Source of the DNA: Candidatus Poribacteria bacterium
GTDB lineage: Bacteria > Poribacteria > WGA-4E > WGA-3G
Assembly: GCA_022821965.1 (NCBI GenBank)
Contig: JAJECN010000059.1
Location: 1-64,000, forward strand
DNA length: 64,000 nucleotides
Reading direction: 5' to 3'
Shown in pieces: positions 42,455 through 45,081 of this stretch; the first letter of the stretch is position 1, and each line of letters begins with the position of its first letter. The position numbers and the translations under genes are program-made. Under the pieces are notes generated by a model. It searched no databases, was not told where the DNA came from, and was given only the letters and a program-made list of their open reading frames with translations.

Positions 42455-43291
42455 ATGTATACCATCCATTCCACATTGACGGAAGAGGAGAAGTGGTACT
42501 TCGATTTACACGGGTTTCTCGTTTTACGGAACGTTGTTCCGAAGGACGAGATTGAGGAGATGTTAAAGGTACTTCGGCATTGGTTGACGATTGATGAAGC
42601 TGACATCCCACCGCCACTCGACCGTGGACGACAGGAGCCTTGCAAAACGCACATTGGGCATATCCAATATGGGCATCGCCTCTTTGAAGACCTCGCGATG
42701 AATCCCGATATTATGCGGGTTGTGGCGGGTTTGACAATGAACGCCCCACGTCTGTTTCACTGCAATTTCACTATGATGACGAAACACAATGCTCCGCAAC
42801 ATTTTCATCGTGATGATAGCGGCTTTAAATTCCCTCTGGGATTTCGCAATCCGCACAACGATTATCAGGCTGCTGCTGGACATATCTATTGTAGCCACAT
42901 TGCGACGTGGGTTGCCCTTGTGGATGTACCCCCCGGAACCGGTTTTTGTCTCGTCCCCGGCAGTCATAAATCTCTGTTTCAGACACCGCCAGATCTGCCT
43001 GTGAAGCACGATCCGCCCACCTCAATTACACTACCGATGGAGGCTGGTGATGTGGCGATCTTCTCGACGAATCTGCTTCACGATGCGAGTCCGTGGACGG
43101 AAGATTACCCGCGCATGAACATCTTTCAACGCTACCAATTGAGTGTCTATTTCAATGAGACTGGAAAGGGTGGATATCCCTTTGACGAACATCGGGATAA
43201 AATCTCGGATGCACAATATGAACTGGAATCGCTATCAAAAGAGGTAAAGGCGGCGGTGAAACCCGTTTTACCGAATGGAGGTCGTAAATGA
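42455..43291 (+). CDS. Phytanoyl-CoA dioxygenase (PhyH)-family Fe(II)/2-oxoglutarate enzyme
   Basis: 278 aa. The iron-binding facial triad is intact: HFHRDD (His118, Asp120) and a distal His in TNLLHDASPW, with a nearby Arg for 2-oxoglutarate. VPGSHKS is also typical of the family. Members hydroxylate a range of small organic compounds; the substrate is unknown. Its stop overlaps the start of the downstream SDR gene by 4 bp (ATGA), a tight translational coupling that suggests sequential steps on one metabolite. Confidence 0.8.
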   Translation: MYTIHSTLTEEEKWYFDLHGFLVLRNVVPKDEIEEMLKVLRHWLTIDEADIPPPLDRGRQEPCKTHIGHIQYGHRLFEDLAMNPDIMRVVAGLTMNAPRLFHCNFTMMTKHNAPQHFHRDDSGFKFPLGFRNPHNDYQAAAGHIYCSHIATWVALVDVPPGTGFCLVPGSHKSLFQTPPDLPVKHDPPTSITLPMEAGDVAIFSTNLLHDASPWTEDYPRMNIFQRYQLSVYFNETGKGGYPFDEHRDKISDAQYELESLSKEVKAAVKPVLPNGGRK

Positions 43292-44049
43292 GTTTAAATG
43301 GACAAGTTTGTATCATCACAGGGGGTGGCAGCGGTATTGGTCGCGGTGCTGCCCTCGCAATGGCGGAAGAAGGTGCGACGGTTGCCATTATCGGTAGAAC
43401 GGAATCGAAATTGACATCTGTTAAAGCCGAAGTTGAAGCAGCTGGCGGGAAAGCGGCGAGCTACGCAATTGATGTGGCTGACTACGATGCCGTTGAGGGG
43501 ATGACTGCCGATGTGCTTAATAAGTTCGGGCGAATTGATGTGCTTGTGAACAATGCTGGACATAGTTCGCACAATCGGCGACTTCTCAACACAACCCCTG
43601 AAGAGATGCGGTCGGTTATTGATTCTAATTTGATCGGCACGTTTTTCTGTACAAAAGCGGTTGTGCCAGCAATGCTGGAAGCGAAATCGGGAACGATTAT
43701 CAATATCTCGTCGCTTGCGGCGGTCACGCCGGGTCCATTTAGTGGTTTCGCCTATGGTGCAGCGAAGGCGGCGGTTATCAACTTCACGGAGTTTCTCAAC
43801 GCCGATTTAAGAAACACGGGTATTCGGGCGAGTGTGGTCGTGCCGGGTGAGGTAGCAACACCGATTCTGGACAAGCGTCCAATTCCACCGGATGCTGATG
43901 CTCGCGCGACGATGGTAGGTGTTGACGAAACCTCAGCGGCGATACTGCTCATAGCGACGCTGCCGCAGCGGAGCAACATCCCGGAGTTAGTCATCCGTCC
44001 GACAATGCATCGGAATATGACAGGCGAAATCGTTGAGTTGGACGATTGA
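43288..44049 (+). CDS. Short-chain dehydrogenase/reductase (SDR)
   Basis: 253 aa, classical SDR. The coenzyme loop is GGGSGIGRG (~10-18), then NNAG, the catalytic Ser in INISSLAAV, and YGAAK with the catalytic Tyr and Lys. It is predicted to oxidise or reduce a hydroxyl/keto group with NAD(P). It overlaps the PhyH gene by 4 bp and converges on the DUF3179 gene, whose stop is at the next base. Confidence 0.88.
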   Translation: MSLNGQVCIITGGGSGIGRGAALAMAEEGATVAIIGRTESKLTSVKAEVEAAGGKAASYAIDVADYDAVEGMTADVLNKFGRIDVLVNNAGHSSHNRRLLNTTPEEMRSVIDSNLIGTFFCTKAVVPAMLEAKSGTIINISSLAAVTPGPFSGFAYGAAKAAVINFTEFLNADLRNTGIRASVVVPGEVATPILDKRPIPPDADARATMVGVDETSAAILLIATLPQRSNIPELVIRPTMHRNMTGEIVELDD

Positions 44050-45081
44050 TTATCGACTATAAATTGTCGTTTCAGGGTAGTAGCGCGCCCACGCGAACCA
44101 ATAGATGTTGACAGCGGGCAGCCGTTCTAAACGCGTGCCTTTCTCTTTACCCGCTGTTGCCTCACCTGTAACCAAATTCCAGCGTGTTCCTGTATTGTCC
44201 TCTATGGAGTGCTGGTCTTGAGGGGTGAAGATTCGCACGTCCTCCCCAACTTTCCGGACAAAAACTGCCGTTGCGAACGACGCTTTGTCGTGGAAGATGA
44301 GCAGCGGCACCTCGCCAAGGGTGTCGTTGATAACAGCGGTTTCGGCGAAATGGGTCAACGGATAGGCACGGAATTGTGTGGTGCCATCCTTTGCTGGCAC
44401 TTGAACGCCAATCACGAGGGATTTATTCGGCAGTCTGTTATCGGTGTATTTCATTCCGCTCACACCGGCACGCTGACTGGCGTGGTAGTCCGCATAGACA
44501 TCTTGGCTTCTACTCTCTTGCATTCCACCTCTGGTAGGCACAGACAATACCCGCGTCTCTGGATAGTTGAATTGCCATGTTTTCCATGCGATCTGTGGCA
44601 TGGAGGCGAGTGATTTCAACCGCTTGCCTTTGAGCGGTCCCTGTATCGCCTCCCCGGTGATATGCGACCAGAGGGAACGGGTCTGATGGTCATACATCAA
44701 CAGCGCGTCCCGCCACAACTTGCCACTCACCCCGAAAGTATAGGTTTTACCTTCAAGTTCTCGACTATACACGATAGCCGTTTTGCAGAGCGGTCACCAC
44801 GTCGTGGCGATTTTCTGTCCACCCACAAGGTCGTTGACGATCTCGTGTCCGTTTAGCAGATAGAGCGAATAGGCGTGGCTTTCGTCATTGAAGGTTACAC
44901 CGATGACGGGGGCATCCGCGTCTAATTTTGCTTCACTTGCTGACACAAATTGTGGGTCGGTGATGGCGGGGATAGCGTCGAACGGTAGTAGGGTTCGGAT
45001 TGCGTCGTCACTATAGTCTGCGGCGGTTGCGCAGGCGGTAGTTGCAAGTAGTAGTATGAGGATGAGCATGTAGTTTTTCAT
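44050..45081 (-). CDS. DUF3179 protein with in-frame TGA at the first Cys of CPLC: candidate selenoprotein
   Basis: Read through one TGA (44794-44796), the frame encodes 343 aa. There is a signal peptide (MLILILLLATTACATA), then LPFDAIPAITDPQF and LNGHEIVNDLVGGQ, the TGA, PLCKTAIVYSRELEGKTYTF, GVSGKLWRDALLMYD and SLWSHITGEAIQGPL. These are continuous DUF3179 landmarks, and the family consensus at the break is C-P-L-C, so TGA stands exactly for the first Cys. No other stop or frameshift occurs. A stem-loop begins 13 nt after TGA. The simplest positive reading is selenocysteine (U-x-x-C redox motif) in an exported protein. Alternatives are a nonsense mutation or a sequencing error; then the gene would be broken into 44794-45081 and a fragment below. 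SelA/B/C/D genes are not in the window. Confidence 0.65.
44762..44796 (-). promoter_or_regulatory. TGA codon with SECIS-like stem-loop
   Basis: After TGA (44794-44796) and 13 nt, CGGCTAT (44774-44780) pairs with ATAGTCG (44762-44768), 7 bp with one G-U, over a 5-nt loop CGUGU. The loop has a G at its second position, about 22 nt downstream of the TGA. Bacterial SECIS elements lie within the coding region just after UGA with a G among the first loop bases at such distances. The base after TGA is C, a context that favours recoding over termination. Confidence 0.5.

Follow-up and report, generated by a model that had tools for sequence, protein, structure and literature searches.

The window, a 64,000-nucleotide stretch of Candidatus Poribacteria DNA, carries on its minus strand a DUF3179 gene (45081-44050) that runs from ATG to TAG and encodes 343 amino acids when its single in-frame TGA is translated as selenocysteine (Sec, U) at residue 96. 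This TGA (44796-44794, minus strand) stands in the context KIATTW-TGA-PLCKTAIVY, and no further stop precedes the final TAG. Under translation table 11 the gene is split into open reading frames (ORFs) of 95 and 240 amino acids, and standard-code gene calling of this kind hides what would be a selenium protein kept by nearly the whole phylum. A profile search aligned residues 35-338 with PF11376 (260 bits, E 3e-77, cut-off 27), covering positions 2-292 of the 292 in the profile and spanning the TGA, which bears out the preliminary description of an otherwise continuous DUF3179 protein interrupted once. When the 5.7-Mb genome (62 contigs; Poribacteria is a sponge-symbiont phylum) was searched, the window gene was the sole DUF3179 match and was reported with "1 TGA" inside. 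The TGA is the first codon of the putative redox motif U-P-L-C, a U-x-x-C (residues 96-99; 44785..44796, minus strand). The protein contains the stretch HEIVND...ATTWUPLC, whose E, N, and D, like the two motif positions, are invariant across 27 diverse DUF3179 proteins. No other in-frame TGA in the window has a positive coding score and a long open frame on both sides, and scoring around every TGA gave no convincing second selenoprotein gene within the window. The convergent neighbor, on the plus strand (43288..44049), is by sequence reading a short-chain dehydrogenase-like gene, a homolog of which flanks DUF3179 in 42 of 45 Poribacteria loci.

The encoded protein begins with a putative hydrophobic signal peptide of about residues 1-21 (45019..45081, minus strand; MKNYMLILILLLATTACATAA), through which it is probably exported; the N terminus is hydrophobic by eye, in relatives as well, and forms a helix at residues 3-16 in the AlphaFold model. 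DUF3179 itself is an internal tandem duplication with U/C-x-x-C in its first half only. Profile comparison of the two alignment halves finds them alike with 99.8% probability (E 1.3e-29, 116 columns), and places repeat 1, which holds the UPLC motif, at about residues 57-180 (44542..44913, minus strand) and repeat 2, which has no C-x-x-C motif, at about residues 221-342 (44056..44421, minus strand). The full-length AlphaFold model (pLDDT 80, pTM 0.77) consists mostly of strands, with the motif in the turn that joins strands 89-96 and 101-106. A profile search of solved structures gave none related by sequence. The second part of several Poribacteria DUF3179 selenoproteins contains an inserted collagen-like Gly-x-x repeat, GADGQDGADG... 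(copies L034, L038, L041, L044, L045, L048, L049, L052, L054, L055, and L062), which the window copy lacks.

Across the phylum, DUF3179 was found in 75 and tRNA-Sec in 73 of 85 genomes. With loci taken from both genome collections, 79 distinct Poribacteria copies cover the motif, and the column occupied by the window TGA reads TGA in 63 and TGC or TGT in 16, with nothing else. The placement of the TGA at the first Cys of C-P-L-C, between TTW and PLCKTAIVY, and the expected alternation of TGA with Cys at this column are thus both borne out. TGA is present in every close relative and TGC or TGT in more distant paralogs, and some Poribacteria genomes hold both kinds together. Disabling mutations elsewhere in the gene, which would have spoken for decay, were looked for in the close relatives and not found: relatives with TGA have no additional stops, and full-length copies are open throughout. 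All nine genomes of the phylum that are assembled in at most 4 contigs contain a TGA copy and tRNA-Sec. In seven genomes with a TGA copy, all draft assemblies, tRNA-Sec was not found (G024, G033, G036, G050, G061, G062, and G078).

In a maximum-likelihood tree, the Sec and Cys copies fall on the two sides of one branch (support 98/97), and the Sec/Cys label changes once, compared with 12.2 times for shuffled labels; the 351 columns of the tree alignment took in the motif columns, which are a small part of it. Because one branch divides the two kinds, the Sec copies are best regarded as an orthologous group that the phylum has retained throughout. Among the 63 distinct Sec copies, no reversion to Cys was seen. 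According to a review, bacteria rarely exchange Sec for Cys and aerobes seldom keep selenoproteins, so that retention of Sec in animal symbionts is of some interest. Most sponge-symbiont bins, from a range of phyla, contain SelA together with SelB according to an earlier sponge metagenome study (PMC5649159). No DUF3179 relatives were found in viral contigs. Deep-branching relatives within the phylum harbor a second, distant Sec lineage whose motif is U-H-L-C and whose SECIS hairpin is compensated (minus strand; L101:635-1600, L102:492-1475, and L103:532-1455); among the genomes of this lineage, G007 and G008 also contain a Cys paralog.

Downstream of the window TGA lies a candidate SECIS hairpin (44762..44780, minus strand) with a 7-bp stem, CGGCUAU/AUAGUCG, and the loop CGUGU. 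It starts 13 nt after the TGA and its loop begins 20 nt after it, exactly the geometry first described, including the 5-nt loop with G as its second base. The published bacterial SECIS model calls for a loop of 3-9 nt, a stem of 4-16 bp, a G among the first two loop bases, a distance of 16-37 nt from the UGA, and an energy of at most -7.5 (PMC13188914), and the window hairpin falls within these constraints, with its 5-nt loop, G at the second position, 7-bp stem, 20-nt distance, and a minimum-energy fold containing the hairpin at -9.5 kcal/mol over 49 nt. The energy of the single window sequence is no better than that of shuffled sequences (z -0.29) and was rejected as evidence; one sequence by itself would therefore not prove the hairpin. 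The signal beyond chance is comparative, in that 63 distinct relatives keep the TGA together with the hairpin and that the hairpin codons are synonymously frozen.

Among Poribacteria DUF3179 genes, the hairpin is found, in the same register, in 63 of 63 Sec copies and in 0 of 16 Cys copies. Its stem has 7 bp in 59 of the TGA copies, 7 positions with one mismatch in 1, and 5 bp in 3 distant ones; loop positions 2 and 3 are G and U in all of them, and the loop is CGUGU in nearly all. When the distant U-H-L-C lineage (L101, L102, and L103) is compared with the main one, three pairs differ by double compensatory changes. Overall, 95% of cells are paired, and double changes occupy 8 cells, compared with 1.2 in shuffled data. 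In 500 shuffles, neither this count nor the covariation score was ever reached, and pairing was lost when the partner strand was slid by 1-3 columns. In the main clade (up to 59 sequences), the codons at +5 to +9 from the TGA read ACG, GCT, ATC, GTG, and TAT; four of them have a synonymous entropy of zero, and the remaining one is the same in 58 of 59 sequences. Zero synonymous entropy was not reached by any of the 149 other conserved codons, which average 1.31 bits. Because the hairpin occurs only with the TGA, covaries, and coincides with synonymously frozen codons, selection acts here on the RNA and is tied to the TGA. The original reading of the hairpin as a bacterial SECIS element is upheld by this conservation and covariation among TGA copies, as well as by the published constraints.

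The genome contains the full machinery for Sec that was to be expected if the TGA is recoded: selA (600 bits), selB (349 bits), selD (359 bits), and a tRNA-Sec (78 bits; tRNA-SeC with anticodon TCA in ARAGORN) that directly adjoins selB. The selD gene has its own in-frame TGA at the known Sec position (TVKCAGUASK). In addition, single in-frame TGAs are present in six AhpC-TSA/thioredoxin-type genes and one CMD-type gene, in most of these seven at a recognizable catalytic Cys, with contexts that include PrxQ-type TGGUTAELC, Prx-like FYRGGWUPFC, Trx-like GSWUGC, and CMD-like CHYU. Together with selD, these genes lie at C12:32783-33154, C12:33233-33601, C6:32766-33140, C62:5166-5537, C17:220981-221367, C12:69432-69770, C8:42041-42232, and C15:4585-5508 of this genome (G000). 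Two of the peroxiredoxin-type TGA genes are side by side on C12. Given the complete machinery and several single-TGA genes at catalytic Cys positions, it is very probable that several proteins of this organism contain selenocysteine. This Poribacteria genome, from a marine sponge symbiont, would then hold a working Sec system and at least nine candidate selenoprotein genes.

The standard code reads TGA as a stop and ORF callers accordingly return pieces of 95 and 240 amino acids, which leaves room for a DUF3179 gene in decay, with a genuine nonsense mutation or a sequencing error. We give this next to no credence, and conservation refutes it: 63 distinct relatives, drawn from many assemblies made independently, have full-length open frames with the same TGA, the codons downstream are synonymously frozen, and the genome encodes the complete Sec machinery. 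It is also very improbable that the TGA is a real stop that separates proteins of 95 and 240 amino acids, or that it is read through at a low level with Trp or another amino acid. A GTG 21 nt after the TGA (44772) could formally start the second ORF, but the intervening residues, PLCKTAI, are conserved, the column alternates with Cys alone, and the hairpin is tied to the TGA and absent from Cys copies. Nor is TGA a general sense codon, since it terminates other genes here, the short-chain dehydrogenase-like gene at 43288-44049 for example.

A different alternative accepts the selenoprotein and concerns its chemistry, with the Sec site binding a metal or cluster in a Rieske-like beta fold and forming no dithiol or selenenylsulfide redox center. 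The full-length model (pLDDT 80) matches PDB folds that include the Rieske domains 2qpz, 3gce, 3c0d, and 5bok (probability 0.92-1.00, TM by target 0.47-0.62), the motif is similar to C-P-x-H, box II of Rieske proteins, and the 17 residues from His79 to residue 96 equal the spacing in Rieske proteins of the same genome. Against this, the Foldseek E values of these matches are 0.017-0.07, with none below 0.001, the model of the first half by itself has a pLDDT of 40, profile comparison with the Rieske proteins of the same genome detects no similarity, and the His is replaced by Arg in the UHLC Sec lineage. DUF3179 proteins also have N-x-H and U/C-x-x-C in place of the C-x-H/C-x-x-H ligand boxes. 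Hence we consider such a metal site unlikely, and we rate as equally doubtful the evolutionary version of the idea, in which DUF3179 is a duplicated Rieske-like fold of an exported protein and the cluster-ligand positions of one half became U/C-x-x-C. Homology finds no support in the profile comparison, and the Rieske likeness is a lead only. If it were true, selenocysteine would sit at the place of a Rieske cluster ligand, as a metal-binding or selenol redox center in sponge symbionts.

The explanation we favor, with high confidence, is that the gene encodes a probably exported DUF3179 selenoprotein with SECIS-directed Sec at residue 96 and a putative U-P-L-C redox site. Selenocysteine is almost certainly what the window TGA encodes. 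During translation, a complex of SelB and tRNA-Sec would recognize the hairpin that immediately follows the UGA, and insertion of selenocysteine at residue 96 would yield the 343-residue protein with U-P-L-C, which its N terminus would direct out of the cytoplasm. The U-x-x-C in the turn of the first repeat would most likely be a redox-active site that forms a selenenylsulfide; analogy with known Sec families suggests such redox chemistry.

The preliminary description hinted that Sec had gone undescribed in DUF3179, which proved mistaken. DUF3179 with UxxC/T already stands in published lists of bacterial selenoproteins (PMC9312934, PMC13188914), which trace it to Zhang and Gladyshev 2007 (symbiont of Olavius algarvensis). 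Because the family appears in these two reviews and NCBI names some of its proteins "(seleno)protein," the window gene brings no family novelty; it adds a well-supported member to the DUF3179 selenoproteins already known. The names in question belong to haloarchaeal proteins (plasmid records H15, H18-H22, H25, and H26), probably members with Cys to which the name of the family was applied; no relevant NCBIfam model matches the DUF3179 proteins tested. Within the library of papers used here, a full-text search for Poribacteria together with selenoprotein returned no paper. What appears to be new here is the phylum-wide fixation of Sec without Sec-to-Cys reversion, the covarying SECIS element, and the internal duplication of DUF3179 with the motif in one half. 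The Sec and Cys paralogs make a clean set, in a family of unassigned function, for asking why selenium is retained.

In family and motif, as reviewed, the window protein is like the DUF3179 selenoproteins of Zhang and Gladyshev 2007, with PF11376 and Sec in UxxC. Unlike the DUF3179 of the Olavius algarvensis symbiont, it belongs to the phylum Poribacteria of sponges, where Sec appears fixed as one orthologous group. The Cys (CPLC) DUF3179 proteins of other bacteria and haloarchaea, also present as paralogs in some Poribacteria, share the domain and the motif column but have Cys for Sec and no SECIS hairpin, and the Poribacteria Cys copies have Tyr, Phe, or Leu for the Trp before the motif. Compared with bacterial SECIS elements, the Poribacteria hairpin is near-invariant across the main clade and more conserved than coding demands. 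Finally, as in the UxxC selenoproteins of the thioredoxin/peroxiredoxin type, candidate genes for which occur in the same genome, Sec would occupy the first Cys of C-x-x-C; unlike in those proteins, the domain that carries it is a different one, mostly beta and duplicated.
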